Counted from the first letter of the stretch, positions 48,501 to 63,963 are shown. The stretch: DNA of 64,000 bases from Burkholderiaceae bacterium (GCA_022702125.1 JAKOND010000021.1:1-64000); one strand, 5' to 3'. Notes: generated from the sequence alone by a model not told the origin. A program made the numbers and translations.

Positions 48501-48533
48501 AGCGCCGCTCACGCACGAGCGGCGCTTTTTTTT
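48501..48533 (+). terminator. Rho-independent terminator after kdgD
   Basis: Ten-base perfect stem AGCGCCGCTC (48501-48510) with GAGCGGCGCT (48517-48526), loop ACGCAC, followed by T from 48526 to 48533. Confidence 0.95.
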
Positions 48534-48564
48534 ATCCAAAAACAAAATTCCCAGGAGACACGCC

Positions 48565-49035: not shown

Positions 49036-50490
49036 TCAGGCGATCCGTTCGATCTCCCGCGCGAAGCGCAGCACCCGCGCGTCCTCGTAGCGCGGCGCGA
49101 CCACCTGCAGCCCCACCGGCAGGCCGCGGGTCCGCCCGGCGGGGACCGAGCAGGCCGGCACGCCGCAGTAATTGAACAGCGGCGTGAAGGCGGCATGGCC
49201 CCGGGGGCCGGCGGGCCGGTCGCCGATGACCGGCGGGCCGAGCTGGCCGCGCGGCCAGGCGGTGACCGGCGCCGTGGGGCACAGCAGCAGGTCGTGGTCC
49301 TCGAAGAAGCGGCCGAGCGCGTGGGCGATCCGTTCCCGCAGGCGCAGCGCCCGCGCGATGTCGCCGGGCGCGCAACGCGCGCCCGCCTCGATCTGCACCG
49401 CCAGGTCGGGGTCGATCCGGTCGCGCGCCTCCGCCAGTTGCCGGCCGTAGAGCGCATGCAGACCGCTCTGCTGCAAGGCGATCAGCGGGTATTCGCGCGC
49501 TTCGGGCGGCCAGGGCGGATCGGCGTCCGCGATGTCCCAGCCGGCCGCGCGCAGGGCGTCGACCCGGGCCTGCAGCGTCTCCAGCACGTCCCGGTCGATG
49601 GCGAAATCGCAGCCCAGCCGCGGGCTCCAGGCGATGCGCAGGCCGCGCGGCGGGGAGTCCAGCGGCAGGCCGGCCTCCAGCCCGCAGGCGATCGGCACCC
49701 CGGCCGGGTCGCCCGCGTCGTACCGGGCCAGCAGGTCGTACGCCAGGGCGGCATCGGTCGCGGTGCGGGCCAGGATGCCGATGACCGACAGGCCGTAGTT
49801 GGGCTCCGCGAAGCCCCAGGGATGCGGGACGAGGCCCGGGCTGGGCTTGAAGCCCACCAGGCCGCAGTGCGCGGCGGGCCGGCGGGTGGAGCCGCCCGCG
49901 TCGGTCGCCAGCGCCAGCAGGCCGAGCCCGCGGGCCAGGGCCGCGACGGCGCCGCCGGACGAGCCGCCGGGCGTGAGCGACGCGTCCTGCGGATGGCGCG
50001 TGCTGCCGTACACCAGGTTGTCCGTGACGCCCTTGCAGGCGAACTCCGAGCAGTTGGTGATGCCCAGCACCACCGCGCCGAGCGCGCGCAGCCGGGCGAC
50101 CGCCCAGGCGTCGCGCGGCGCGACGAAGTCCTCGAACAGCAGCGATCCCTGGGTGATGCGGTAGCCCTCCACCCAGAGGTTGTCCTTCACGGTGATCGGC
50201 ACGCCCGCCAGCGGCAGGGTTTCGCCCGCGGCGAGGCGGCGGTCCACCGCGGCGGCTTCCTCCCGCACCCGCGCCGGATCGAACCGGACGATGGCGAGCA
50301 GCGCCGGGTTGAGGGCCTGCACCCGGGCGATGAAGTGCTCCGCCACCGCGGCGGCGCGGAGCCGGCCGTCGCCCACGGCCCGCGCGAGCGCCCGGGCCGA
50401 GCAGTCGTGCAGCGCCTCGGGCACCGGCATGCCCGGCTGCGCTGCCGCGTGGAGCGCATTCGCGCCGGATCGGTCCGGCCCGGCGGTCAT
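49036..50490 (-). CDS. Amidase-signature family hydrolase
   Basis: A 484-residue amidase-signature enzyme that hydrolyses a carboxamide, releasing ammonia or an amine. The catalytic Ser-cisSer-Lys set is visible: Lys102 in ITVKDNL, the Gly/Ser loop TPGGSSGGA (173-181) and nucleophile Ser201 in DAGGSTRRPA. Substrate is unpredictable; relatives include AtzE-like ring-fission amidases, allophanate hydrolase and GatA. No signal peptide is present. The ATG overlaps the racemase-like gene by four bases, and it is the last gene of the minus arm of the island. The product was probably taken from a bulky cyclic ureide or amide made by the upstream enzymes; that is inference. Confidence 0.88.
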   Translation of the reverse strand: MTAGPDRSGANALHAAAQPGMPVPEALHDCSARALARAVGDGRLRAAAVAEHFIARVQALNPALLAIVRFDPARVREEAAAVDRRLAAGETLPLAGVPITVKDNLWVEGYRITQGSLLFEDFVAPRDAWAVARLRALGAVVLGITNCSEFACKGVTDNLVYGSTRHPQDASLTPGGSSGGAVAALARGLGLLALATDAGGSTRRPAAHCGLVGFKPSPGLVPHPWGFAEPNYGLSVIGILARTATDAALAYDLLARYDAGDPAGVPIACGLEAGLPLDSPPRGLRIAWSPRLGCDFAIDRDVLETLQARVDALRAAGWDIADADPPWPPEAREYPLIALQQSGLHALYGRQLAEARDRIDPDLAVQIEAGARCAPGDIARALRLRERIAHALGRFFEDHDLLLCPTAPVTAWPRGQLGPPVIGDRPAGPRGHAAFTPLFNYCGVPACSVPAGRTRGLPVGLQVVAPRYEDARVLRFAREIERIA

Positions 50491-51239
50491 GCGGCGGACC
50501 CCCCCCGGAACAGGCCCGCGAGGGCCGGCGAGACGTCGCTGACGTCGCGGTCCTCCAGCGGCGCCAGGCTGCCCGCGCGGCTGGCCGGCAGTCCCAGGGC
50601 ATGGCGGGCCTCGGCCAGCGCGACGGCGCAGGCCACGCCGTCGATCAGCGGCACGCAAGCGTGCGGCTGCAGGGCGCCGGCCATCGAGGCCATGGCCGCG
50701 CCGGCCAGCAGCACCGCCTCGGCGCCGTCGCGCCGCACCAGGCGCTCGATGCCGGCGAGCACGGCATGGCGCACGGCCGCCGGATCGTCGAAGGTCTGCT
50801 GCGGCGTGACGTCGAGCGCCTCCACGCCCGCCAGCCGCGCGCCCAGCCCGTGCTCCTCCACCAGCGCGCGGTACAGCGGCGCCATCCGCGCGCCGTAGGT
50901 CACGATGCCGATGCGGCCGGCCAGGGTGGCGCCCACCAGCAGCCCGGCCTCGGTCATGCCGATGACCGGGATGTCGAGCAGTTCGCGGCAGGCCCACAGC
51001 GCGCTGTCGAGCGAGACGGCCAGCACGATGGCGTCCGCCTCGCCCGCGTGCTGCGCGGCCAGCTCCAGCACTTCCTGCTGCGCGATCGCGTTCTCGGCGC
51101 GCGAGGCGATGACCCGCGGTCCGCGCCGGCCGGTGACGGCCCGCAGCGCGGTGCCCGGCCGCGCGGCCGCGCGCGCGGCGGCCAGCACCGCGTCGGTCAC
51201 GGCCTGGGTGCGGTTGGGGTTGATCAGCAGCAGTCTCAT
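50487..51239 (-). CDS. Asp/Glu/hydantoin-racemase superfamily protein lacking both catalytic cysteines
   Basis: A 250-residue protein of the Asp/Glu racemase fold, closest in layout to hydantoin and allantoin racemases: MRLLLINPNRTQAVTDAVL at the start, then a family-typical ARELLDIPV-like stretch (here CRELLDIPVIGMTEA). In that family a Cys sits in IACFGDPG and another in LGCAGM. Here the first reads LAVSLDSA (Val75 at the Cys place) and the second LLAGAAM (Gly180 at the Cys place). A two-base racemase mechanism therefore seems impossible. It may be a decarboxylase, isomerase or a non-catalytic binder. It overlaps both neighbours (PuuE-type and amidase genes) by four bases. Confidence 0.82.
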   Translation of the reverse strand: MRLLLINPNRTQAVTDAVLAAARAAARPGTALRAVTGRRGPRVIASRAENAIAQQEVLELAAQHAGEADAIVLAVSLDSALWACRELLDIPVIGMTEAGLLVGATLAGRIGIVTYGARMAPLYRALVEEHGLGARLAGVEALDVTPQQTFDDPAAVRHAVLAGIERLVRRDGAEAVLLAGAAMASMAGALQPHACVPLIDGVACAVALAEARHALGLPASRAGSLAPLEDRDVSDVSPALAGLFRGGSAA

Positions 51240-52177
51240 GCGCGCGCTCCCGCCATGCCGGGCGGCGGCGGCACCGTGGCGCGCCAATGGCGCGCGATCT
51301 GCTCGCGCGTGGCGAGCCAGACGCCTTCGCGGCCCGCGATGCGCTCCACCAGCGCCCGCAGCCCGCCGATGCGTCCGGGCCGGCCGATGATGCGGGTGTG
51401 CAGGCCGATGGACAGCATGCGCGGGGCCTCGCGCGACTCGGCCAGCAGCCAGTCGAAGGCGTCGCCGCAGTAGTCCGCGAAATCCGCGCCGCGCACGAAG
51501 GCGTGGCTGTCGAAGAAGCGCATGTCGTTGGTGTCGAAGCCGTACGGCAGCACCAGGTGGGCCTGCCCGGCCACCTCGCGGTAGAAGGGCAGGTCGTCGT
51601 TGTAGGCGTCGCTGTCGTAGAGGAAGCCGCCGTGCTCCACCAGCAGGCGACGCGTGTTCACCGACGCCGACGACTTGGTGTGCCAGCCCGCCGGCGGGCG
51701 GCCGGTCAGCCGCGCGATGGCGGCCGCGCTGCGCGCGATGCGCTCGCGCTCCTCGTCCACCGGCAGGCCGGCGTGGGATTCCCAGCGCCAGCCGTGGCAG
51801 CAGACCTCGAAGCCCCGGCGCACCGCGTCCTCGGCGATCCAGGGCGTGGCTTCGAGCGCGCGGGCGCAGCAGTTGAGGGTGAGCGGCACGCCGGCCCGCG
51901 CCAGCAGGTCCGCGATGCGCCGGTAGCCCACCCGCGCGCCGTACTCGAAATGGCTCTCCATGCACAGGTCGGGCGCGCCGCGCACCTCGTGCGTGACCTC
52001 GTGGCAGGCCTCGTTGCGCTCGTCGCCGGCCGAGAGCGCGAACTCGGCGCCTTCCTCGATGTTGAGCACGAAGGACACGGCCAGGCCCGCGCCGCCCGGC
52101 CAGCGCATGGCGGGGGCGGCGTCGCCGTAGCCCGCGAAGTCGCGGGGCGGGGAGGAAGGGAATGCGGAAGCGTTCAT
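51236..52177 (-). CDS. PuuE/allantoinase-type polysaccharide-deacetylase-fold hydrolase
   Basis: A 313-residue NodB-fold protein of the PuuE (metal-independent allantoinase)/HpPgdA group. Typical motifs: RWPGGAGLAVSFVLNIEEGA near the start (PuuE proteins have NYEEGGE), MESHFEYGARVGYRRIADLL, FEVCCHGWRWESHAGLP with the conserved His, WHTKSSASVNTRRLLVEHGG and FLYDSDAYNDDLPFYREV. In the purine pathway PuuE hydrolyses allantoin; the family also includes peptidoglycan and cyclic-amide hydrolases. Here it accompanies amidohydrolases and an amidase, so a cyclic ureide or imide is a fair guess. The ATG overlaps the amidohydrolase gene. Confidence 0.85.
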   Translation of the reverse strand: MNASAFPSSPPRDFAGYGDAAPAMRWPGGAGLAVSFVLNIEEGAEFALSAGDERNEACHEVTHEVRGAPDLCMESHFEYGARVGYRRIADLLARAGVPLTLNCCARALEATPWIAEDAVRRGFEVCCHGWRWESHAGLPVDEERERIARSAAAIARLTGRPPAGWHTKSSASVNTRRLLVEHGGFLYDSDAYNDDLPFYREVAGQAHLVLPYGFDTNDMRFFDSHAFVRGADFADYCGDAFDWLLAESREAPRMLSIGLHTRIIGRPGRIGGLRALVERIAGREGVWLATREQIARHWRATVPPPPGMAGARA

Positions 52178-53682
52178 GCGAGGCGCGCCGGGTAGGTGTC
52201 GGGGGCCACCGGCTGCGCCAGGCCCTCGTGGTGGATGCGGTCCATGGCCCGCAGCACCGGGGCCATCTCGGCCTCGGCGGCGGCGTAGCGGGGCAGGAGT
52301 TCGGCGAACTCGCGCTCGATCTCGGCCAGCAGCGCGGCCTCGTCGATGCGGGCCAGGCGGCCGTCGCGCAGCGCGATCTCGCCCCCGACCATCGAGAAGT
52401 CCAGGCCGGCGCCGCGCTCGGCGTAGACCAGCTGGCGCACCGGATCGTTGAGCGGCGCGAAGGTCACGGTGTCGGTGCGGTAGGCCGCCAGGTCGGCGAG
52501 GGCGCCGACGCGGAGGCTGCCCAGCGCGTCGCCGAAACCCAGCGCCCGGCCGCCGGCCAGGGTGCCGGCGTGCAGCGCCTCGTGCGCCGACAGCCAGCGC
52601 GCGGGATCGTCGCCGCGCAGCTTCGACACCGCCGCGGCGCTGCCCAGCACGTTGAGCATGTTGACGGTGACGGTCGAGCAGGAGCCGTCGGAGCCCAGGC
52701 TGACGTTCACGCCCGCGTCGAGCAGCGCGCGCACCGGCTGCACGCCGGAGCCCAGCAGCAGGTTGCTCCAGGGGTTGTGCTGCGCGGTGGCGCCGGCGCG
52801 GGCCAGGGCGTCGATCTCGCGCGGGTTGAGCCAGACCGCGTGGATCAGGCTGGTCGCGGGCTGCAGGAAGCCGATGCGGTCCAGGTACTCGACCATCGGG
52901 CAGCCGTAGAGCCACCGGCCGGTGACGACCTGCAGCCGCGTCTCCTGCACATGGGTGATCACCGGCAGCGCCAGGTCGTCGGCCAGGCCGCGCACCGCGC
53001 GCAGGAAGGGCTCGGTGCAGCGCTGCGGCGCCGAAGCCGACACCAGCACGCCGACGCGGTTCGCCCGCGGGTGGCGCGCGCGCGCCAGGTCGCGCACCAG
53101 CGCCAGCTGGTCCTCGGGCGCGGGGCGCGGCGCGGCGCGCAATTCGGCCGCCAGCGCGGGCGGCACGTGCTTCTCGACGAAGGGGAAGTTGTCGACGATG
53201 GGCTTGTCCATCATCGCGAAGCCGACCAGCGCGCGGATGCCCGCGTCGTCGTAAGCCTGCAGCGCCGCGTCGATGCGTTCGCGGTCGATGGCCGCGCCCA
53301 GGGCGGTGTCGTCCACCAGCGTGGTGCAGCCGGTGCGCAGCGACTCGATCGCGCCGATCATGGTGCGCAGGTAGACCTGCCGCGGCGTCAGCCGGACCGG
53401 CGTGCGGGTGCGCACCAGGTGCATCCACAGCTCCAGCGGCAGGTTCTCGGTGCGTCCGCGCTGGAAGTGCTCGTGCGAATGCTGGTGGCCGTTGACCAGG
53501 CCCGGCACCAGCAGGCGGTGGCCGAGGTCGACGATGCGGTCCGCCGCGCCCAGCGTGCCCGCGGGTTCGATGGCGGCGATGCGGTCGCCCGCGACCAGCA
53601 CGTCGCGCGGCCGGCCGTCGTAGGCGAGCGCATCGCCAAGCAGCACGCGCGCGCCGCGCAGCAGGGTTCGTTTCGGGGTCAT
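52174..53682 (-). CDS. Metal-dependent amidohydrolase 1 (TRZ/ATZ-like)
   Basis: A 502-residue amidohydrolase-superfamily enzyme for deamination or dechlorination-type hydrolysis of heterocycles. Metal ligands are HQH plus more His: VNGHQHSHEHFQRG (His66, His68), VITHVQETRLQ, SLIHAVWLNPREI and GSDGSCSTVT with the catalytic Asp. The N-terminal beta-sandwich part (RGARVLLGDALAYDGRPRDV) and C-terminal GALADLAAYR are usual for the subgroup. The C-terminus is about 50 residues longer than most. Its start is 53 bases after the permease stop, so it belongs to the same minus operon. The second amidohydrolase (59673) is only distantly related. Confidence 0.88.
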   Translation of the reverse strand: MTPKRTLLRGARVLLGDALAYDGRPRDVLVAGDRIAAIEPAGTLGAADRIVDLGHRLLVPGLVNGHQHSHEHFQRGRTENLPLELWMHLVRTRTPVRLTPRQVYLRTMIGAIESLRTGCTTLVDDTALGAAIDRERIDAALQAYDDAGIRALVGFAMMDKPIVDNFPFVEKHVPPALAAELRAAPRPAPEDQLALVRDLARARHPRANRVGVLVSASAPQRCTEPFLRAVRGLADDLALPVITHVQETRLQVVTGRWLYGCPMVEYLDRIGFLQPATSLIHAVWLNPREIDALARAGATAQHNPWSNLLLGSGVQPVRALLDAGVNVSLGSDGSCSTVTVNMLNVLGSAAAVSKLRGDDPARWLSAHEALHAGTLAGGRALGFGDALGSLRVGALADLAAYRTDTVTFAPLNDPVRQLVYAERGAGLDFSMVGGEIALRDGRLARIDEAALLAEIEREFAELLPRYAAAEAEMAPVLRAMDRIHHEGLAQPVAPDTYPARLA

Positions 53683-53735
53683 GGCAGGGTTCCGGCGGGA
53701 GGGGACCGTGGAGGGCGGTGGAAGGGCGGTCGGCG

Positions 53736-54617
53736 TCAGCGCATGTGGCGGGAGATGCCCGCCACCCGCTCCATCGCCACCATCAGCACCACGGTGGCCG
53801 CCACCAGCACGCCCGACACCGCGGCGGCGCGCACGTCCAGGTTCGATTCGATGATGTGCCACATGCGGATCGGCAGCACCTCGCTGCGCGCGTCCGACAG
53901 GAAGAGCGAGACCGCCACGTTGTCGAAGGAGTACATGAAGCCGATGAAGGCCCCGGCCGCGATGCCCGGCCCGATCAGCGGCAGCGTCACCGTGCGGAAG
54001 GCGTACGGCGACGAGGCGCCCAGGGAATGCGCGCTCTCCAGCAGCACGCCGTCCATCTGCGCCAGGCTGGCCGAGGTGGTGCGCAGGATGTAGGGCGTGG
54101 TGATCGCGATGTGGCCCAGCACCAGCGTGCCGAAGGACAGGCCGGTGCCCGCCAGGTTGAACAGCATCAGCAGCGACAGGCCGATGGCCAGCGCCGGCAG
54201 CATCAGCGGCGACAGGAACATCGCCTCCGCCGCGCGGGCCCAGGCCTCGCGCCGCCGGGCCAGCGCCAGCGCGGCCGCCACCGCCAGCACGACCGACACG
54301 GCGGTGGCGCACGCCGCCAGCTTCAGCGACAGCACGAAGGCGTCGACCAGCTCGGGCGAGTCGTTGAACAGCGCCTCGTACCAGCGCGTGGAATAGCCGG
54401 CGGGCGGGAACTTCAGCGAATAGCCGCTGGTGAAGGAGGTGATGACCACGATCACCGTGGGCGCCAGCAGCAGCACCGCCGCCACCAGGCCCAGCAGGCC
54501 GAAGACGCCGCCGAAGGACAGGCGTTCGAGCCGGCCGCCGAGGCGGGCGCGGGCGAGGGGCGGCGCGTCCGCGGCGAAGGCCGCCCGCGGAGCGCCGGAG
54601 ACGAACTGGTCAGGCAT
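53736..54617 (-). CDS. Spermidine/putrescine-type ABC permease (PotC-like)
   Basis: Second permease of a polyamine/opine-type importer, 293 residues with six membrane segments after a 35-residue Ala/Arg-rich cytoplasmic lead. Family features: SFTSGYSLKFPPAGYSTRWY in the loop after helix 1, and the EAA loop LLESAHSLGASSPYAFRTVT near residue 200. The ATG at 54617 overlaps the PotB-like stop by eight bases. Expected to pair with the PotB-like protein and the ATPase at 55475. The solute receptor is encoded on the other strand at 56880. Confidence 0.92.
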   Translation of the reverse strand: MPDQFVSGAPRAAFAADAPPLARARLGGRLERLSFGGVFGLLGLVAAVLLLAPTVIVVITSFTSGYSLKFPPAGYSTRWYEALFNDSPELVDAFVLSLKLAACATAVSVVLAVAAALALARRREAWARAAEAMFLSPLMLPALAIGLSLLMLFNLAGTGLSFGTLVLGHIAITTPYILRTTSASLAQMDGVLLESAHSLGASSPYAFRTVTLPLIGPGIAAGAFIGFMYSFDNVAVSLFLSDARSEVLPIRMWHIIESNLDVRAAAVSGVLVAATVVLMVAMERVAGISRHMR

Positions 54618-55467
54618 GCACGAACCCCTTGCTGCGCCGGCCCAGCGCGTTGATGGCGGCCGCCACGGCCAGCACGCTCGCCAGCAGCAGCATGGCGATG
54701 GCGGCGGCGAACGGATAGTCGTTGGCCTGGATGGCCTGCTGGTACATGTAGAACGGCATGAACATCTGCTGGCCGCCGCCGACCAGCGTCTGGGTGACGA
54801 AGGCGCTGACGCTGGAGGCGAAGACCAGCAGGCTGCCGGCCAGCAGCCCCGGCATGGACAGCGGCAGGGTGACCTGCCGGAAGGTGCGCCAGTGGCCGGC
54901 GCCCAGCGCCAGCGAGGCCTGCCGCAGGTTGCCGTCCAGGTTGGAGAGCACGGTGATGAGCGGCAGCACCATCAGCGGCAGCTCGATCTGCGCCAGCGCG
55001 ACCACCACCGCGCCCGGCGTGTAGAGCAGCTTGAGCGGATCGGCGATGACGCCCAGGTCCAGCAGCACCGTGTTGACGATGCCCTGGCGGCCCAGGATCA
55101 CCACCCAGGCGAAGGTGCGCACCACCGAGCTGGTCAGCAGCGGCAGCAGCACCAGCAGCAGCAGCGGCCCCTGCCAGCGCGCCGGCGCCCGGGTGTAGAG
55201 GTAGGCCAGCGGGAAGCCGAGCGCCAGCGCCAGCAGCGTGACGCGTAGCCCCAGCCACAGCGTGTTGGCCAGGATGCCGAGGTTGAAGCCGTCGCCGAGG
55301 AACTTGGCGTACTGGGCCGGGCCCATGCGGGCCATGGCGGGGTCGTCGTGCAGGCTCACGTAGGCCAGCAGCAGCATCGGCGCCAGCACGAAGGCGAGGA
55401 AGAACAGCGCCAGCGGCAGGCCGAGGGCCAGCGGCGGCGAGAAGCGGGGGGCGGTGGTGGCGGCCAT
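54610..55467 (-). CDS. Spermidine/putrescine-type ABC permease (PotB-like)
   Basis: First permease of the importer, 285 residues with six membrane helices. The start MAATTAPRFSPPLALGLPLA leads into helix 1; GFPLAYLYTRAPARWQGPLL and TSSVVRTFAWVVILGRQGIV are PotB-type loops, and the EAA motif is LRQASLALGAGHWRTFRQVT (about 185-204). The ATG at 55467 starts 7 bases past the ATPase stop (55475), a tight operon junction. A longer open frame extending into the ATPase gene is an artefact. Confidence 0.92.
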   Translation of the reverse strand: MAATTAPRFSPPLALGLPLALFFLAFVLAPMLLLAYVSLHDDPAMARMGPAQYAKFLGDGFNLGILANTLWLGLRVTLLALALGFPLAYLYTRAPARWQGPLLLLVLLPLLTSSVVRTFAWVVILGRQGIVNTVLLDLGVIADPLKLLYTPGAVVVALAQIELPLMVLPLITVLSNLDGNLRQASLALGAGHWRTFRQVTLPLSMPGLLAGSLLVFASSVSAFVTQTLVGGGQQMFMPFYMYQQAIQANDYPFAAAIAMLLLASVLAVAAAINALGRRSKGFVHA

Positions 55468-55474
55468 GGTCGGA

Positions 55475-56566
<1,092 letters not shown>

Positions 56567-56879
56567 GGGAGAGGTCCTTTTCGGCGTGGGCGGCCCGTCG
56601 CCGCAGTCAGGCGTCTCAAGATCCGTGCCACGCCCGGCACAGGACGGCGGCGGGAAAGCCGGAGCCGGGATTGGATACAAAACTAGAGGCAACTGTGTCC
56701 ATCACGGTGCGCGCCGAACCAATCCGGGACATGGCATCCACCGAAACAGTGCGCCGCCCCGCGCTCCGCACCCGGCGGCGGCGGTCCGCGCGGCCCGCGC
56801 CCATTGGCATGGAGCTTGCGCTGAGGCTGCATCCGTCCCGCACCACCCCGGCATCGATGCCCGCACGAAAGGAATCCCC
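56567..56879. other. Divergent control region of the catabolic island
   Basis: This 313-base gap separates the two arms of the island. It contains one operator-like site (TTGGATACAA, 56671-56680) in an AT-richer patch roughly midway, and a GAAAGGAA ribosome site before the plus-strand gene. No gene is seen in it. No perfect -35/-10 pair was found on either strand. Confidence 0.6.
56671..56680. promoter_or_regulatory. Operator-like site 1, TTGGATACAA
   Basis: ATTGGATACAAAAC, with TTG-N4-CAA arms, lies between divergent starts at 56566 and 56880. The same 10-mer recurs in inverted form at 59588 and 61093 and directly at 61171. TTG-N4-CAA arms suit FCD-type GntR regulators, and one is encoded at 58753. 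Confidence 0.65.
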
Positions 56880-57926
56880 ATGAGCCACCCCCTGTCCCGC
56901 CGCCGCCTGCTGCAGGGCGCCGGCGCCGCCTGCCTGACCGGCGCCTCCGGCCTGGTCCCGGCCCAGAACCGCTCCATCTCGGCCACGACCTACCCGGGCG
57001 CGTGGGAGTCCGCCCACCGCGGCATCCTGCTGCCGGCCTTCACCAAGGCCACCGGCGCCTCGGTGAGCCTGGTGCCCTCGCTCGCGGTGGACACCGTCTC
57101 GAAGATCGTCGCCTCCAAGGCCAACCCGCCCTACGACGTGATCATCCTGGACGAGGGCCCCTACCTGGCGGCGCTGCCGCAGGACATCTTCGAGAAGATC
57201 CCGACCGACAAGATGCCCTACCTCAAGGACGTGCCGGCCAAGCTGGTCGATCCGCGCGGCCTGGGCGTCTTCGTGTCCGGGCAGATCATCGGCATCGCTT
57301 ACAACACCGAGAAGATCAAGAACCCGCCGCGCTCCTGGAACGACCTGCTCAAGCCCGAGTACAAGGGCCGCGTGGGCCTGGCCGGCATGGGCTCGACGCT
57401 GATGTCCGCCTGGATGGTGGAGATCGCGCGCCAGAACGGCGGCAGCGAGGAGAATCTGGAGCCGGCCTTCCAGTTCGTGAAGAAGCTGCTGCCCAACGTG
57501 AGCGCGGTCGCCAGCAACCCCGGCTCGCTCGCCACGCTGTTCCAGCAGGGCCAGATCGACATCTCGGTGCACTACAACAACAACATCGGCGACCTGCAGG
57601 CCAAGGGCGTGCCGGTGGCGCTGGCCCGGCCCGACACCGGCTGGATCCACATCAAGAGCGTGATGCACATCGTCAAGAACAGCAAGAACCCCGACCTGGC
57701 CGCCGCCTACATCAACGCGGCCCTGAGCCCCGAGGTGCAGACGAAGATGGCCGCCGCGCCCTACTACGTGGCGCCGGTCAGCGCCAAGGCGGCGTTCAGC
57801 CCGGGCCTGCAGGCCTACGCGAAGAGCATGGCCGAGATCGAGACCATGAACGGCGTCGACTGGGCCAAACTCAACCCGCGCCGCGGCGAGTACATCGACC
57901 GCTTCAACCGGGAGATCCGGGTGTGA
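56880..57926 (+). CDS. Spermidine/putrescine-type periplasmic binding protein (Tat-like signal)
   Basis: Periplasmic receptor of the polyamine/opine-type importer, 348 residues. The signal MSHPLSRRRLLQGAGAACLT contains SRRRLL, a good twin-arginine motif. Mature part: SATTYPGAWESAHRGILLPA, then PYDVIILDEGPYLAALPQDI, VSGQIIGIAYNTEKIKNPPR and SWNDLLKPEYKGRVGL, as in PotD/IdiA-like proteins. It is divergent from the ATPase gene of the same importer, and an operator-like site lies 200 bases upstream. The ligand is unknown; the neighbouring hydrolases suggest a nitrogen compound. The GTG start of the next gene overlaps its TGA stop. Confidence 0.92.
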   Translation: MSHPLSRRRLLQGAGAACLTGASGLVPAQNRSISATTYPGAWESAHRGILLPAFTKATGASVSLVPSLAVDTVSKIVASKANPPYDVIILDEGPYLAALPQDIFEKIPTDKMPYLKDVPAKLVDPRGLGVFVSGQIIGIAYNTEKIKNPPRSWNDLLKPEYKGRVGLAGMGSTLMSAWMVEIARQNGGSEENLEPAFQFVKKLLPNVSAVASNPGSLATLFQQGQIDISVHYNNNIGDLQAKGVPVALARPDTGWIHIKSVMHIVKNSKNPDLAAAYINAALSPEVQTKMAAAPYYVAPVSAKAAFSPGLQAYAKSMAEIETMNGVDWAKLNPRRGEYIDRFNREIRV

Positions 57927-58696
57927 GCGCGGCGACGACCCCGACCCCGACGGCAGTCCCGGACGCGGCCGCGCCCCGCCGCGTCCTGCTCGGGATGCTG
58001 ACGCCGTCGTCCAACACCGCGCTGGAGCCGATCACCGCCGCCATGCTGGCCGGCCTGCCGGAGGCGTCCGCGCACTTCGCGCGCTTCCGCGTCACCGAGA
58101 TCTCGCTGGGCGACCGGGCGCTCGGCCAGTTCGACGAGGCTCCGATCCTGGAGGCCGCGCGGCTGCTGGCCGACGCCCGGGTGGACGTGATCGCCTGGAA
58201 CGGCACCTCCTCGGGCTGGCTCGGCTTCGAGCGCGACGAGGCGCTGTGCGCGCGCATCACCGCCGAGACGGGCATCCCGGCCTGCACCTCGGTGCTGGCG
58301 CTCAACGAGGCGATGCGCCTGGCCGGGCGCACCCGCTTCGGCCTGCTGTCCCCCTACCTGGAAGACGTGCAGCGGCGCATCGTGGACAACTACGCGCGCC
58401 GCGGCTTCGACTGCGCGGCCGAGCGGCACCTGGGCCTGCGGGTGAACTTCGAGTTCTCGGAGGTGACGCCGGAGCAGATCGGGGGCATGGCGCGCGCGGC
58501 GATGGCCGCCGGCGACCCGCAGTGCCTGACCACCTTCTGCACCAACCTGCGCGCCGCGCCGATGGTGCCGGCGCTGGAGGCCGCGCTCGGCGTTCCCGTC
58601 TACGATACGGTGGCCACCGCGGTGTGGAAATCGCTGCGCATCGCGGGCGTGGACACCCGCCGCGTGCGGGGCTGGGGCAGCCTGTTCGACCTGTAG
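57923..58696 (+). CDS. Arylmalonate-decarboxylase/maleate-isomerase superfamily protein
   Basis: A 257-residue protein of the Asp/Glu-racemase superfamily, AMDase/maleate-isomerase branch. It starts with GTG overlapping the previous stop. Seen: LLGMLTPSSNTALEPITAAM (substrate-carboxylate loop), VIAWNGTSSGWLGFERD with Gly94-Thr95-Ser96 where maleate isomerase has Cys, TTFCTNLRAAPMVPALE with Cys206 in the second catalytic place, and the C-terminal WKSLRIAGV...GSLFDL. Known AMDases have exactly a Gly-Thr-Ser first site and a single catalytic Cys, so a cofactor-free decarboxylation of a malonate-like acid is possible; maleamate or maleate isomerisation is the alternative. Confidence 0.83.
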   Translation: MSAATTPTPTAVPDAAAPRRVLLGMLTPSSNTALEPITAAMLAGLPEASAHFARFRVTEISLGDRALGQFDEAPILEAARLLADARVDVIAWNGTSSGWLGFERDEALCARITAETGIPACTSVLALNEAMRLAGRTRFGLLSPYLEDVQRRIVDNYARRGFDCAAERHLGLRVNFEFSEVTPEQIGGMARAAMAAGDPQCLTTFCTNLRAAPMVPALEAALGVPVYDTVATAVWKSLRIAGVDTRRVRGWGSLFDL

Positions 58697-58752
58697 TCGC
58701 CTCCCCCCGCGCCGATCCCCGCTCCCATCCGCTCCAGCCTTCCCACTCCACC

Positions 58753-59541
58753 ATGGCGACCACGACCTCCCGCGCGCATCCGGCGCCTCCGGCCTCCGGC
58801 AAGACGGCCTCCCGGGCCGTTGCCGACAGCGCTCCCCAGGACGCCCGCAAGGCCGTCGCCAAGGTCGCGTCCAAGGCGGACATCTACCAGCGCATCTACG
58901 AGGCCATCGTCGAGCACCGGCTCGTGCCCGGCACCAAGCTCGCGGAGGAGCGGGTGGCCGAGCTGTTCGCCGTCAGCCGCACGCAGGTGCGCGGCGTGCT
59001 GCAGCGCCTGGCGGTGGAGCAGCTGGTCACGCTCATCCCCAACCGCGGCGCCTTCGTCACCACGCCCAGCGTGGACGAGGCGCACGACGTGCTGGAGGTG
59101 CGCCGGACGCTGGAGCCCGCCATCGTGCGGCGCCTGATGGACCGCATCGCGCAGGGCAAGGCGCCCGGCGCGGTGCGGCAGCTGCGCGCGCTGATCAAGC
59201 GCGAGCAGCAGGCGCACGCCAAGGGCGACCGGCGGGCGGCGGTGCGCCTGTCGGGCGAATTCCACGTGCTGCTGGCCGAGCTCTCGGGCAGCAGCATCCT
59301 CACCCGCATGATGCGCGAGCTGACGCCGCTGACCTGCCTGGCCATCCTGACCTACGACGCCCCCACCGGCGCCGCCTGCCCGAACGACGAGCATTCGCTG
59401 CTGGCCGACGCGATCGAGGCCGGCCGGCACGACGCGGCGATGGCGCTGATGGTGGAGCACCTGCACCACATCGAGGGCTCGCTCAACCTCCGGGAAGAGG
59501 AGGAGGCGGAGGTCGACCTGGCCGACGTGCTGCTCGGCTGA
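58753..59541 (+). CDS. GntR-family transcription regulator (FCD subfamily)
   Basis: A 262-residue regulator. After a 40-residue Ala/Ser/Lys-rich lead comes the winged helix-turn-helix (about 42-110: IYQRIYEAIVEHRLVPGTKL, AEERVAELFAVSRTQVRGVL, LVTLIPNRGAFVTTPSVDEA), then an all-helical FCD ligand domain (about 115-245) whose metal-type residues include the His of EFHVLLAEL and the C-terminal MALMVEHLHHIEGSL. Such proteins are usually repressors released by a pathway intermediate. It lies inside the plus arm of the island, 56 bases after the AMDase-like gene, and is the natural candidate for binding the TTGGATACAA sites around it. Confidence 0.9.
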   Translation: MATTTSRAHPAPPASGKTASRAVADSAPQDARKAVAKVASKADIYQRIYEAIVEHRLVPGTKLAEERVAELFAVSRTQVRGVLQRLAVEQLVTLIPNRGAFVTTPSVDEAHDVLEVRRTLEPAIVRRLMDRIAQGKAPGAVRQLRALIKREQQAHAKGDRRAAVRLSGEFHVLLAELSGSSILTRMMRELTPLTCLAILTYDAPTGAACPNDEHSLLADAIEAGRHDAAMALMVEHLHHIEGSLNLREEEEAEVDLADVLLG

Positions 59542-59586
59542 GCGGGCGCCGGGCAGGGCGGCGGAGGCGCCGCGCCCCGCCGAAGC

Positions 59587-59597
59587 TTTGTATCCAA
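59587..59597. promoter_or_regulatory. Operator-like site 2, TTTGTATCCAA
   Basis: TTTGTATCCAAAG, the inverted form of site 1, lies 76 bases before the amidohydrolase 2 ATG. A weaker variant, CCTGGATACGCA (59609-59620), follows 12 bases later. Confidence 0.6.
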
Positions 59598-59672
59598 AGG
59601 CATGGCAGCCTGGATACGCATGGCATACCGGTTGCTTCCTCCCGGGCTTCCCTTGTCCGGAGCGCCACCGCC

Positions 59673-61025
59673 ATGTCCCCGTCCCCCGAAACCTTCGACC
59701 TGCTGATCCTGGGCGCCACCGCCCTCACCGCCGAGCCCGACCGGCCCGAGATCCGCGACGCCGCCATCGGCATCCGCGACGGCCGCATCGCCTGGCTCGA
59801 CAAGCAGCCGCCGGCGCGGTACGAGGCGCGCCGCACGCTGCGGATGCCGGACCACTTCGTCACGCCGGGCTTCGTCAACGTCCACACCCACGCCATCCTG
59901 AGCATGGTGCGCGGCGTGGCGGCCGACCTGGGCTTCGCGCCGTCCTATACGCCCGGCATCCCCAAGGGCACGCAGGTCGATCCCGGCCAGGCGCGGGCGC
60001 TCGCGCGGCTCGGCGCGCTGGAGGCGCTGCTGTCGGGCTCGACCCTGGTCGGCGACAACTTCGTGCATGCCGACGTGAGCACCGAGGCCATGGCGGAACT
60101 CGGCCTGCGCCTCGCGCCCAGCTGGCGCATCCACGACGTGGACTTCGCGCGGGTGGCCCACGGCGACTGGCACCACACGGCCGCCATCGGCCACGCCACG
60201 CTGGAGGCGGCGCTGGCGCTGCACGCGCGCTGGAAGGACCATCCGCGGGTGCGGGTGAACCTCGCGGCGCACGCGGTCGACACCTGCTCCGACGGCTTCC
60301 TGCGCGAGGTGGCGGCGGCCTCGGAAGCGCACGGCCTGCGGGTCAGCACCCACCTGGGCCAGAGCCGGGTGGAGGTGGAGCGGGTCCGCGCCCGCACCGG
60401 CCGCAGTTCCACCGAGGCGCTGCAGGACGCCGGCCTGCTCAACGGGCGGCTGATGGGCGGCCACTGCATCCACGTGGACGAGGCGGACGCGCGCCGCATG
60501 GCCGAGGCCGGGGCGCACGCGGTGCACATCCCCAAGTGCAACGCGGCCTCGGGCCGCATGGCGCCCACGCCGATGCTCAAACGCCTGGGCGTGAACATCG
60601 CGCTGGCCACCGACACCCAGCACGCCGACATGGTCGAGCTGATGCGCTGGGCGCTCGCCACCGCGCGCATCCAGGAGGGGGGCGTCGCCGACGACTGGCA
60701 GCCGTCGCACGTCTTCCACATGGCCACGCTCGGCGGCGCGCGGGCGCTGGGCCAGGAGGACCGGATCGGCAGCCTCGCGGTCGGCAAGTCCGCGGACCTG
60801 GCGGTGATCGACGCGCGGCGCCCGCACCTGCGGCCCCATGTGAACCCGCTCGGCGCGCTGGTGCACACCGGGCAGGGCCGGGACGTGCGCATGGTGCTGG
60901 TCGAGGGCGAGGTGCTGGTCGAGGACGGCCTTCCCACGAAGGTGGACATGGAGACGGTGTGCGCCGAGGCGGAGGCCGCGTCGCGCGCGCTCTGGGGCGC
61001 CGAGGGCAAGGCCTACTGGCAGTGA
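59673..61025 (+). CDS. Metal-dependent amidohydrolase 2 (TRZ/ATZ/cytosine-deaminase-like)
   Basis: A 450-residue amidohydrolase-superfamily enzyme. Metal residues: FVNVHTHAILSMVRG (His71 and His73), STHLGQSRVEVE, MGGHCIHVDEADAR and LATDTQHADMVE (catalytic Asp). GSLAVGKSADLAVIDARRPH near the end closes the beta-sandwich domain. It is closer to the guanine/8-oxoguanine/TRZ deaminase layout than to the 52174 enzyme. The region upstream carries operator-like site 2. The gene is followed by 236 bases of control sequence before the second ABC importer, so it may be its own transcription unit. Confidence 0.88.
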   Translation: MSPSPETFDLLILGATALTAEPDRPEIRDAAIGIRDGRIAWLDKQPPARYEARRTLRMPDHFVTPGFVNVHTHAILSMVRGVAADLGFAPSYTPGIPKGTQVDPGQARALARLGALEALLSGSTLVGDNFVHADVSTEAMAELGLRLAPSWRIHDVDFARVAHGDWHHTAAIGHATLEAALALHARWKDHPRVRVNLAAHAVDTCSDGFLREVAAASEAHGLRVSTHLGQSRVEVERVRARTGRSSTEALQDAGLLNGRLMGGHCIHVDEADARRMAEAGAHAVHIPKCNAASGRMAPTPMLKRLGVNIALATDTQHADMVELMRWALATARIQEGGVADDWQPSHVFHMATLGGARALGQEDRIGSLAVGKSADLAVIDARRPHLRPHVNPLGALVHTGQGRDVRMVLVEGEVLVEDGLPTKVDMETVCAEAEAASRALWGAEGKAYWQ

Positions 61026-61092
61026 GCGGCGGCCGCGGCGTCCCCGGAGGCCGATGCATGGAAGCCGTGCGCGATTGCATCGGCATGTAAGG

Positions 61093-61102
61093 TTGTATCC
61101 AA
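61093..61102. promoter_or_regulatory. Operator-like site 3, TTGTATCCAA
   Basis: Perfect inverted copy of TTGGATACAA, 67 bases after the amidohydrolase 2 stop and 78 bases before site 4. Confidence 0.6.
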
Positions 61103-61106
61103 AACC

Positions 61107-61132
61107 GGTGCGTTTTTTCTATGGAACGCACC
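61107..61132 (+). promoter_or_regulatory. Inverted repeat between operator-like sites
   Basis: GGTGCGTT (61107-61114) pairs with AACGCACC (61125-61132) around a 10-base loop. It could be a terminator-like hairpin for the upstream gene, though there is no U-run after the stem, or an additional regulator site flanked by the two operator-like copies. Confidence 0.4.
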
Positions 61133-61170
61133 ACGTTAGGCCGTCTCCTGTGCGATTCGGCCGGGAGGAA

Positions 61171-61180
61171 TTGGATACAA
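61171..61180. promoter_or_regulatory. Operator-like site 4, TTGGATACAA
   Basis: ATTGGATACAAAC, a perfect direct copy of site 1, 81 bases before the ATG of the second binding-protein gene and 78 bases from site 3. Two sites this close could allow looping or cooperative binding. Confidence 0.65.
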
Positions 61181-61261
61181 ACTTGGCACGCACATTGCAT
61201 GAAAGGAGCACCCGGCGGCCTGTCCGCAGGCCGGTTCCTCCCCACCGTTCCAGGGAAAGCC

Positions 61262-62263
61262 ATGCGCAAGCTCATCGCTCCTCTTCTCCTCGCCATCGCG
61301 GCCGTGCTGCCCCTCGCCAGCCAGGCGCAGGACGCCATCAGGCTCGGCTACGCCAAGTGCGCCCACTGCACGCCGCTGTCGCTGACGCCGCAGAACGCCG
61401 ACCCGGCCAACGTCAAGCTGGAGGCCACCGCCTTCAACACCGGCAACGACGTGCTGACGGCCCTGCTGTCCAAGAGCATCGACGTCGCGCAGGTCACCTA
61501 CCTGCACTACGCCACCGCGCTGGACAAGGGCTTCGACGTGGTCGCCATCTCGGGCCAGATCAACGGCGGCTCGCAGATCCTGGTGGGCAACGACGTGCCC
61601 GTCGCCGAGAACGACTGGGGCGGCCTCAAGAAGGTCATCGCCGACTACAAGGCCCAGGGCAAGCCCTTCCGCGTCGCCGCCTCGCGCGGCAACGCGCAGG
61701 ACATCCACATGCGCGGCGCCTTCGCGAAGCAGGGCATCGACATCGCCAAGGACGTGCAGTTCATCAACATCCCCAACCCCTCGGACCACGTCCAGGCGCT
61801 GCGCAGGGGCGAGGTGGAGCTGATCTGCTCGGTGGACCCCTTCGCCACCCAGATCCGCGAGGTCAAGGCCGCCAAGTTCTTCGCCTTCCCCTACGACCAG
61901 GCGGCCGGCAAGCTCACCAACCTGATCGTCACCCGCTCGGACGTCATCGCCGCCAAGCCCAAGGCGGTCGAGGAGACGGTGCGCTCCATCGTCAAGGTCA
62001 ACGACCGGATGGAGCAGGACAAGTCGCTCTTCGTCGACACCATCCAGAAGGTCACCGGGCTGGACAGGGCCGTGGCCGCCGGCGCCGCCGGGAACCTCTA
62101 CCCCGACTACCGCATGCACCGCGCCTCGGCCGTGGCGATCGCCAGGATGATGAAGGACCTGCGCTACATCAACACCGACGTGTCGGCGGCGGTGGAGAAG
62201 CACCTGGACTACCGCTTCCTGGAGGCGGCGACCGGCAAGCCCAAGTCCGCGCTGGGTTATTGA
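61262..62263 (+). CDS. SsuA/TauA-like ABC periplasmic binding protein with a CxxC pair
   Basis: Periplasmic receptor of the second importer, 333 residues. Sec signal MRKLIAPLLLAIAAVLPLAS, cleaved near residue 23 (SQA-Q). The first mature strand is DAIRLGYAKCAHCTPLSLTP: Cys33 and Cys36 form a CxxC beside the usual ligand site, not normal for SsuA/TauA proteins. NMT1-type fold features follow (LLSKSIDVAQVTYLHYATAL, VAASRGNAQDIHMRGAFAKQ). The gene starts a three-gene ABC unit. AGGGAAAG precedes the ATG at 61262; a longer in-frame start at 61121 would cover operator-like site 4 and is rejected. The ligand is unknown. Confidence 0.9.
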   Translation: MRKLIAPLLLAIAAVLPLASQAQDAIRLGYAKCAHCTPLSLTPQNADPANVKLEATAFNTGNDVLTALLSKSIDVAQVTYLHYATALDKGFDVVAISGQINGGSQILVGNDVPVAENDWGGLKKVIADYKAQGKPFRVAASRGNAQDIHMRGAFAKQGIDIAKDVQFINIPNPSDHVQALRRGEVELICSVDPFATQIREVKAAKFFAFPYDQAAGKLTNLIVTRSDVIAAKPKAVEETVRSIVKVNDRMEQDKSLFVDTIQKVTGLDRAVAAGAAGNLYPDYRMHRASAVAIARMMKDLRYINTDVSAAVEKHLDYRFLEAATGKPKSALGY

Positions 62264-62279
62264 CAGGACGGGACCGACG

Positions 62280-63173
62280 ATGGCACACGGCACCACCGAC
62301 ACGCTGACCGCCGCGCCGCCGGCGGCAGGCCCCGCGACCGCCTCCGCGCAGGCCGGCGCCCCGCTGTGGAAGCGGATCTACCGCCGCATCGAGCGCGCGA
62401 TCGTGCCGGTGCTGCTGCTCGCGGGCTGGGAGGTCTTCTCCCGCTCCGGCGTGCTGCCGGCGGCCCTGCTGCCCGCGCCCTCGCAGGTGATGGTGGCCTG
62501 GGCCGACTGGGTCTTCGCCACCGACGGCAACACCCAGGACTACAGCGGCCACTGGATCTTCGACGTCGCGGCCAGCGCGGCCCGGGTCTTCGCCGGCTTC
62601 GCGCTGGCGGCGCTGGCGGGCATCGGCCTGGGCATGGCGATCGGCTGGTCGCGCACCGTCGAGAAGCTCATCGAGCCCGCGCTGCAGGTGCTGCGCCCGG
62701 TGCCGCCGGTGTCCTGGATCCCGCTGGCGATCATCTGGTTCGGCATCGCCAACAAGCCGGCCATCTTCCTGGTGTTCCTGGGCTCCTTCTTCCCGGTGCT
62801 GCTGTCCACCATCCACGGCGTCAAGACCTGCGACCGCAACCTGCTGCGCGCGGGCGCCATGGCCGGCGGCACGCCGGGCCGGCTGCTGCGCCACATCGTG
62901 TTCCCGGCGGCGCTGCCGAGCATCTTCTCGGGCCTGCGCATCGCGATCGGCTCGGCCTGGATGCTGACCGTGACGGCCGAGATGGTGGCCGTCAAGAGCG
63001 GCGTGGGCTACGTGCTCTGGGATTCCTACTACTTCCTGCGCTACGACATCGTGATCGCGGCCATGGCCAGCATCGGCCTGCTGGGCTTCTGCAGCGATTT
63101 CGCGATCAAGCTGCTGTCGATGCGCCTGCTGCGCTGGCAGCGCGGCTCCACCCTGCAATCGAAGGAGGGCTGA
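62280..63173 (+). CDS. SsuC/TauC-like ABC permease
   Basis: Inner-membrane permease of the second importer, 297 residues with six membrane segments after a 25-residue Ala/Pro-rich start. Features: LPAALLPAPSQVMVAWADWV after helix 1, LIEPALQVLRPVPPVSWIPL (helix 3 entry), the EAA loop LLRAGAMAGGTPGRLLRHIV near residue 195 and AEMVAVKSGVGYVLWDSYYF, the SsuC/TauC mark. It follows the receptor gene by 16 bases and precedes the ATPase by 4. Confidence 0.92.
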   Translation: MAHGTTDTLTAAPPAAGPATASAQAGAPLWKRIYRRIERAIVPVLLLAGWEVFSRSGVLPAALLPAPSQVMVAWADWVFATDGNTQDYSGHWIFDVAASAARVFAGFALAALAGIGLGMAIGWSRTVEKLIEPALQVLRPVPPVSWIPLAIIWFGIANKPAIFLVFLGSFFPVLLSTIHGVKTCDRNLLRAGAMAGGTPGRLLRHIVFPAALPSIFSGLRIAIGSAWMLTVTAEMVAVKSGVGYVLWDSYYFLRYDIVIAAMASIGLLGFCSDFAIKLLSMRLLRWQRGSTLQSKEG

Positions 63174-63177
63174 CGCC

Positions 63178-63963
63178 ATGAGCAGCCTCATCGCCATCCA
63201 GAACGTCTCGCGCCTGTTCCAGGATCCGCGCCGCGGCACGCCGGTGCGCGCGCTGGACGACGTGTCCCTGAGCGTGCGGCGCAACGAGTTCCTGTGCCTG
63301 CTGGGGCCGAGCGGCTGCGGCAAGTCCACGCTGCTCAACATGATCGCCGGCTTCGACCATCCGAGCAGCGGCACGGTCAGCGTCGGCGGCCGGCCGGTGC
63401 GCGCGCCCGGCGTGGACCGCGGCGTGGTCTTCCAGCAGCCCACGCTGATGCCCTGGCTCACGGTCTGGGAGAACGTGGCCTTCCACCTCACGATGACCGG
63501 CGCGCCCCGGGCCACGCGGCGCAAGAAGGCGCAGCACTACATCGACATGGTGGGCCTGCGCGGCTTCGAGACGCACTTCCCCAGCGAGCTGTCGGGCGGC
63601 ATGAACCAGCGCGTGGGCATCGCCCGGGCGCTGCTGATGAATCCCGAGGTGATCCTGATGGACGAGCCCTTCGGCGCGCTCGACGAGCAGACCAAGATGG
63701 ACATGCACGCCGAGCTGGTGCGCATCTGGCGCGAGAGCCAGAGCACCATCGTGTTCGTCACCCACGGCATCGAGGAGTCGCTGGCGCTGGGCACGCACAT
63801 CGCCGTGATGTCGGCGCGGCCCGGCCGCATCCGCGAGCTGATCGAGGTGGACCTGCCGCGCCCGCGCGACTCCACCGGCGCCCGCTTCAACGACTACAAG
63901 CGCCACATCCTGTCGCTGCTGCGGCCCGATCCGGCCCGCGCGTCCCCGGCCGCCCATGCCTGA
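63178..63963 (+). CDS. SsuB/TauB-like ABC ATPase
   Basis: Cytoplasmic ATPase of the second importer, 261 residues. Walker A LLGPSGCGKSTLL (about 43-55), Q-loop VVFQQPTLMPWLTVWEN, signature ELSGGMNQRVGIARAL and Walker B VILMDEPFGALDEQTKMDM, then FVTHGIEESLALGTHIAVM. There is no TOBE-like tail, as usual for nitrate/sulfonate/taurine-type ATPases. Its stop overlaps the ATG of the following gene at 63956 by eight bases, so at least one more enzyme belongs to this unit. Confidence 0.93.
   Translation: MSSLIAIQNVSRLFQDPRRGTPVRALDDVSLSVRRNEFLCLLGPSGCGKSTLLNMIAGFDHPSSGTVSVGGRPVRAPGVDRGVVFQQPTLMPWLTVWENVAFHLTMTGAPRATRRKKAQHYIDMVGLRGFETHFPSELSGGMNQRVGIARALLMNPEVILMDEPFGALDEQTKMDMHAELVRIWRESQSTIVFVTHGIEESLALGTHIAVMSARPGRIRELIEVDLPRPRDSTGARFNDYKRHILSLLRPDPARASPAAHA

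Follow-up and report, generated by a model that had tools for sequence, protein, structure and literature searches.

At Pseudomonas hutU, the local GntR repressor HutC protects a region that overlaps the sigma-54 site, and NtrC, with the consensus GCACCA-N3-TGGTGC, is part of the hut circuit (PMC12977541). For the FadR subfamily of GntR proteins, the general form of the operator is TNGTNNNACNA, as exemplified by GntR1 and GntR2 of Corynebacterium glutamicum (PMC2230225).

The locus described here is a catabolic island within a window of 64 kb, the whole stretch of DNA that was analysed. It resembles hutU in that a local GntR protein, predicted here to be a repressor, is associated with sigma-54-like promoters of a cluster for the catabolism of nitrogen compounds. 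The two systems differ in the regulator and its site: HutC carries the effector domain of the HutC subfamily and has the consensus TGTA-N2-TACA, whereas the island regulator is of the FCD type with the predicted operator TTGGATACAA. The targets differ as well, those of the island being amidohydrolases and ABC importers. HutC at hutU is the closest and a direct precedent for the proposed exclusion of sigma-54 polymerase by a repressor whose operator abuts the -24 box.

With GntR1 and GntR2, the island regulator shares the combination of a GntR DNA-binding domain with an FCD domain, and the island sites approach TNGTNNNACNA. Their TTG-N4-CAA arms are preserved across islands, the left half-site TTGGA deviates from GT at its inner base, and the site is one base short of the 11-base consensus; the FCD operator type appears broadly consistent with FadR-subfamily sites. 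Unlike the Corynebacterium system, the island promoters are sigma-54-like, and no named NCBIfam equivalog was found for the regulator, the best match being PhnR of Burkholderia (TIGR03338, 89.9 against a cut-off of 271.5). Among open-licence papers, nothing related by title and abstract was found for the 10-mer on either strand, and searches for FCD regulators at sigma-54 promoters and for the island itself returned nothing relevant.

Gene Content of the Island and Its Regulator

The regulator gene (58753..59541, + strand, 262 aa) is probably the last gene of a unit designated SBP1-AMD-gntR. As the earlier note had proposed, a GntR/FCD protein is encoded at 58753 in the middle of the island, and both Pfam domains scored above their cut-offs: the N-terminal GntR winged helix-turn-helix (PF00392, 2e-15, 56.6 bits against 27) and the C-terminal FCD domain (PF07729, 2.8e-20, 73.4 bits against 24.3). 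The HutC equivalog TIGR02018 reached 27.3 bits against a cut-off of 220, over the DNA-binding part only, and the HutC-type effector domain was absent.

The other two genes of this unit encode the ABC substrate-binding protein SBP1 (56880..57926, +; Pfam SBP_bac_6/8) and AMD (57923..58696, +), an enzyme of the Asp/Glu-racemase superfamily resembling arylmalonate decarboxylase or EutA (Pfam Amdase and Asp_Glu_race; under the NCBIfam equivalog cut-offs). They are followed on the same strand by the TRZ/ATZ-like amidohydrolase AHY2 (59673..61025; Pfam Amidohydro_1), whose closest solved relatives are putative amidohydrolases and deaminases, and by an NMT1/SsuA-type importer operon of ssuA-, ssuC- and ssuB-like genes (61262..63963). 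The ssuA product matched Pfam NMT1_2 and, with a score under the cut-off, NCBIfam SsuA_fam, and ssuC and ssuB were placed as orthologues in related islands.

On the opposite strand, a leftward unit (49036..56566) was delimited by nearly abutting ORFs and protein family matches, in the order potA, permA, permB, AHY1, a PuuE-like deacetylase, a racemase and an amidase. Two importers and five hydrolases had previously been counted for the island; the hydrolases were corrected to four (two amidohydrolases, the amidase and the PuuE-like deacetylase), next to two enzymes of the Asp/Glu-racemase superfamily. None of the ten proteins scanned reached an NCBIfam equivalog cut-off. Judging from the protein families, the substrate may be a cyclic amide or a related nitrogen compound.

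The Ten-Base Repeat in the Window and the Assembly

Exact search of the window returned four copies of TTGGATACAA, an imperfect palindrome with the half-sites TTGGA and TTGTA. Copy O1 (56671-56680, +) lies in the divergent potA/SBP1 promoter region, O2 (59588-59597, −) is inverted and lies upstream of the AHY2 promoter, O3 (61093-61102, −) is inverted and lies upstream of the ssuACB promoter, and O4 (61171-61180, +) is situated 3 bp upstream of the -24 box of ssuA. These are the four places given in the earlier note, which, as far as its reading went, had found the 10-mer nowhere else in the window.

Nor are copies scattered over the genome of this organism: in the whole assembly (G000; 4.68 Mb, 347 contigs), the only exact copies were these four, compared with one for the reversed control. 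By rough arithmetic, the chance of four independently placed sites all falling within one 4.5 kb stretch is about 4e-9.

When up to one mismatch was allowed, five matches were observed in the window against a mean of 0.22 in window shuffles. The fifth, TTGGATAAAA at 48530-48539 (−), lies outside the island promoters and had been listed as a partial variant. Since 24 one-mismatch copies occur across the assembly, i.e., about 0.3 per 64 kb, it can be explained by chance alone, and it was set aside as a chance match. A ranking of 10-mers by the number of loci with at least two copies was dominated by GC-rich coding words and gave no information.

Conservation of the Site in Related Islands

Twenty-three close orthologues of the regulator (66–90% identity) with flanking DNA were available, and their DNA-binding domain is nearly invariant. 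Orthologous islands occur in Variovorax, Pseudacidovorax, Pseudorhodoferax, Polaromonas, Ideonella, Burkholderia and other genera, and the 10-mer is kept at their corresponding promoters. All 19 ssuA promoters and 16 of the 17 AHY2 promoters carry the exact operator ahead of the gene; the AHY2 promoter of L063 alone differs, reading TTGGATACAC. At SBP1, nine of 17 promoters have the exact sequence and the other eight read TTGGACACAA, TTGGCGCCAA or TTGTCGACAA, so that the core changes and the TTG-N4-CAA arms persist. All these counts refer to loci and not to independent events, some rows being near-identical species.

At the position orthologous to O1, TTGGATACAA is found in Variovorax and Pseudacidovorax, TTGGACACAA in Pseudorhodoferax, TTGGCGCCAA in L063 and L069, and TTGTCGACAA in the distant island L134. 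Most ssuA promoters retain a further operator upstream, at about -100 to -200 relative to the start codon, and the two copies are spaced approximately 70 to 112 bp apart where both are exact. In Polaromonas, Ideonella, Sphaerotilus and Leptothrix, sites were located between the divergent amidase and potA genes.

The 18 genomes holding an orthologue contained two to five exact copies each, 68 in total, against two for the reversed control. A further 60 genomes of the same family without a close orthologue contained 48 copies in total, mostly scattered. Outside the islands, some exact copies lie near neither a sigma-54 element nor a target gene, and look like chance occurrences or sites of other regulators.

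The comparison across genera marks the 10-mer as a real, evolutionarily conserved, predicted docking site. Absence of the 10-mer from orthologous clusters and wide scatter over the genome had been named in the earlier note as refuting its reading; neither was observed. Short repeats can arise in AT-richer intergenic DNA, and a chance origin, or mobile or duplicated DNA with no regulatory role, might be considered on that ground. Such an origin is next to inconceivable for repeats whose four exact copies are clustered and unique in the genome, and whose sequence, position and spacing are conserved across genera while the flanks have diverged.

Two related words were recorded elsewhere. In three Variovorax genomes, CTTGGATACAAG occurs (L104 3017, L105 3076, L110 3054) near another amidase/ABC cluster with about 31–33% identity to the island amidase, and is possibly the site of a paralogous regulator. 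Conserved in two Pseudorhodoferax genomes, TTGGATACAAAAT (L107 3024, L108 3036) lies about 1.6 kb before a racemase gene and a different GntR gene (38–39% identity).

Sigma-54-like Promoters and the Position of the Operator

Sigma-54 promoters depend on an AAA+ activator, and FCD proteins are not AAA+ activators. Judged by pattern, all four transcription units of the island have sigma-54-like promoters, a feature absent from the earlier reading. The canonical pattern TGGCAY-N5-TTGC is shown by the -24/-12 elements of SBP1-AMD-gntR (TGGCATGGAGCTTGC, 56805..56819, +), AHY2 (TGGCATACCGGTTGC, 59621..59635, +) and ssuACB (TGGCACGCACATTGC, 61184..61198, +). The element of the leftward potA operon (TGGCACGGATCTTGAG, 56615..56630, −) has TTGA for TTGC, i.e., GA instead of GC in the -12 box. 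Searched as TGGCAYNNNNNTTGC, the canonical form gave three matches in the window (56805, 59621 and 61184), all at island promoters, where 0.35 were expected, and 23 across the genome, with six for the reversed control.

In the related islands, a sigma-54-like element was present at every ssuA (19/19), AHY2 (17/17), SBP1 (17/17) and potA promoter examined, using a relaxed pattern that also allows TTGA and any first base. Upstream of potA, TGGCAY-N5-TTGA is found in the closely related islands, canonical TTGC in the rearranged islands L074, L078–L080 and L111, and CGGCAT...TTGA in L134. The AHY2 promoters of Pseudorhodoferax have CGGCAC forms at a similar spacing from the operator.

The operator abuts the -24/-12 region with a gap of 1–4 bp at ssuA and at most AHY2 promoters, and an exact copy stands just ahead of the -24 box in 17 of the 19 ssuA promoters. 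Altogether, TGGCAY-N5-TTG[CA] lies 1–4 bp downstream of 25 of 63 exact operators, compared with 0.035 expected by chance. The O1-type site is more distant from the -24 boxes, at about 40 bp for potA and 125 bp for SBP1.

These distances are activator-like, and upstream operators could serve an activating role; the regulator might then bind its sites yet mainly activate, aiding sigma-54 polymerase or the enhancer protein when substrate is bound. An FCD-type regulator of Corynebacterium glutamicum has been reported both to repress and to activate (PMC2230225). We nevertheless consider predominant activation improbable: a dimer occupying the ssuA or AHY2 operator, right beside the -24 box, would collide with polymerase, and the AAA+ activator required at such promoters is not an FCD protein.

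At the AHY2 promoter of the window, the proximal copy is decayed (CTGGATACGC, 59610-59619, +) and abuts the -24 box, with the perfect, inverted copy O2 situated 22 bp further upstream. The partial variant previously noted at 59609 is this sequence; it aligns without gaps with the intact TTGGATACAA of L059 and L060, has the same 1-bp gap to TGGCAT, and occupies the orthologous position of the relatives' operator. L059, L060 and L062 show the opposite state, with a perfect proximal copy and, at the position aligned with O2, a degenerate upstream copy. Between 59588 and 59619, two adjacent operators appear to have decayed reciprocally in this organism and in three Variovorax loci, a turnover seen in four sequences.

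Site and Regulator Outside Conserved Synteny

The AHY2 gene and the ssuABC operon of Pseudacidovorax are unlinked from the regulator gene, being found on other contigs or more than 100 kb away, and each has the site (L093, L094, L096, L098, L099, L101, L102 and L121). The term local fits the present organism, where all copies fall within the island, and does not extend to Pseudacidovorax, where the targets are unlinked yet carry the site. Downstream of the regulator gene of Burkholderia L076 (69% identity) lies a transporter operon with permeases only about 30% alike, and the promoter of this operon still reads ATTGGATACAATTTC-TGGCACGGAGCTTGCG. The site appears to follow the regulator when the target genes differ and to follow the targets once these have moved.

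The distant island L134, which encodes a regulator of 51% identity, lacks the 10-mer. At the corresponding place of its potA/SBP1 region, ATTGTCGACAAT is found, with the perfect palindrome TTGTCGACAA, and the recognition helix of its regulator is altered at residues that do not vary elsewhere among the orthologues. Operator and recognition helix differ together in this single case.

On these grounds, the 10-mer almost certainly belongs to the cluster's own GntR/FCD regulator. Further FCD-GntR paralogues exist in the genome (16 matches to the regulator query in G000). Among the genomes examined, none was found with the targets and without the regulator; the two nearly always co-occur, and a different transcription factor travelling with the island and binding the sites is conceivable. 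That a factor other than the 58753 protein does so is highly unlikely, considering that the site stays with the regulator in L076 though other genes differ, that operator and recognition helix differ jointly in L134, and that relatives lacking a close orthologue have fewer and mostly scattered copies.

Enhancer Half-Sites and a Candidate Activator

Upstream of the sigma-54 elements, GCACCA/TGGTGC was the commonest permuted 6-mer (6.0 against 1.8 per kb in the background), with an approximately threefold enrichment upstream of the ssuA and SBP1 promoters. In the window, GGTGCG...CGCACCA half-sites beside O3 (61107..61133, no strand assigned) form a candidate enhancer element that may be NtrC-like; no intact half-site dyad was found at the window's SBP1 promoter. 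A P-II gene of this genome has comparable half-sites no more than about 1.5 kb away.

The dyads show N5/N6 spacing at SBP1 and a reversed order at ssuA, and differ from the canonical NtrC form GCAC-N7-GTGC; for this reason NtrC is regarded as a candidate only for the enhancer-binding activator of the island promoters. None of the 11 strong sigma-54 activator genes of the genome lies on the contig of the island.

Proposed Mechanism of Regulation

The 10-mer is very probably the operator of the island's own 58753 GntR-FCD regulator, which would most likely be a substrate-responsive repressor of four sigma-54-dependent units, namely potA...amidase, SBP1-AMD-gntR, AHY2 and ssuACB. An operator 1–4 bp upstream of the -24 box is seen at ssuA and would be the ancestral state at AHY2; a regulator dimer on it would overlap the footprint of sigma-54 RNA polymerase and so hold the promoter closed. 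The upstream operator sits among GCACC/GGTGC half-sites, the predicted location of an enhancer-binding protein that is perhaps NtrC, and a dimer bound there could obstruct the activator or take part in a repression loop. Release of the regulator would be brought about by an imported compound or its breakdown product, after which firing of the promoter would still depend on a second signal, probably a shortage of nitrogen. Autoregulation is expected as well, because the regulator gene is probably the last gene of a unit under its own predicted control. Taken together, the arrangement suggests a separate activator with a local off-switch superimposed on it.

A more elaborate version of this repression is offered tentatively, and we consider it rather unlikely. 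The regulator would grip the operator at the -24 box together with another among the enhancer half-sites and fold the interval between them, so that the AAA+ activator could not reach sigma-54 polymerase; lineages would trade the strong operator at AHY2 between the two positions.

The island adds a predicted FCD-type example to the arrangement of a GntR protein over a sigma-54 promoter known from HutC. For an uncharacterised catabolic island common to several genera of Burkholderiales, a predicted regulator, operator and promoter class are now provided, and the island substrate becomes testable through inducer screening. The natural variation of the operator core with the recognition helix may serve as a ready test set for the specificity of FCD-GntR proteins.
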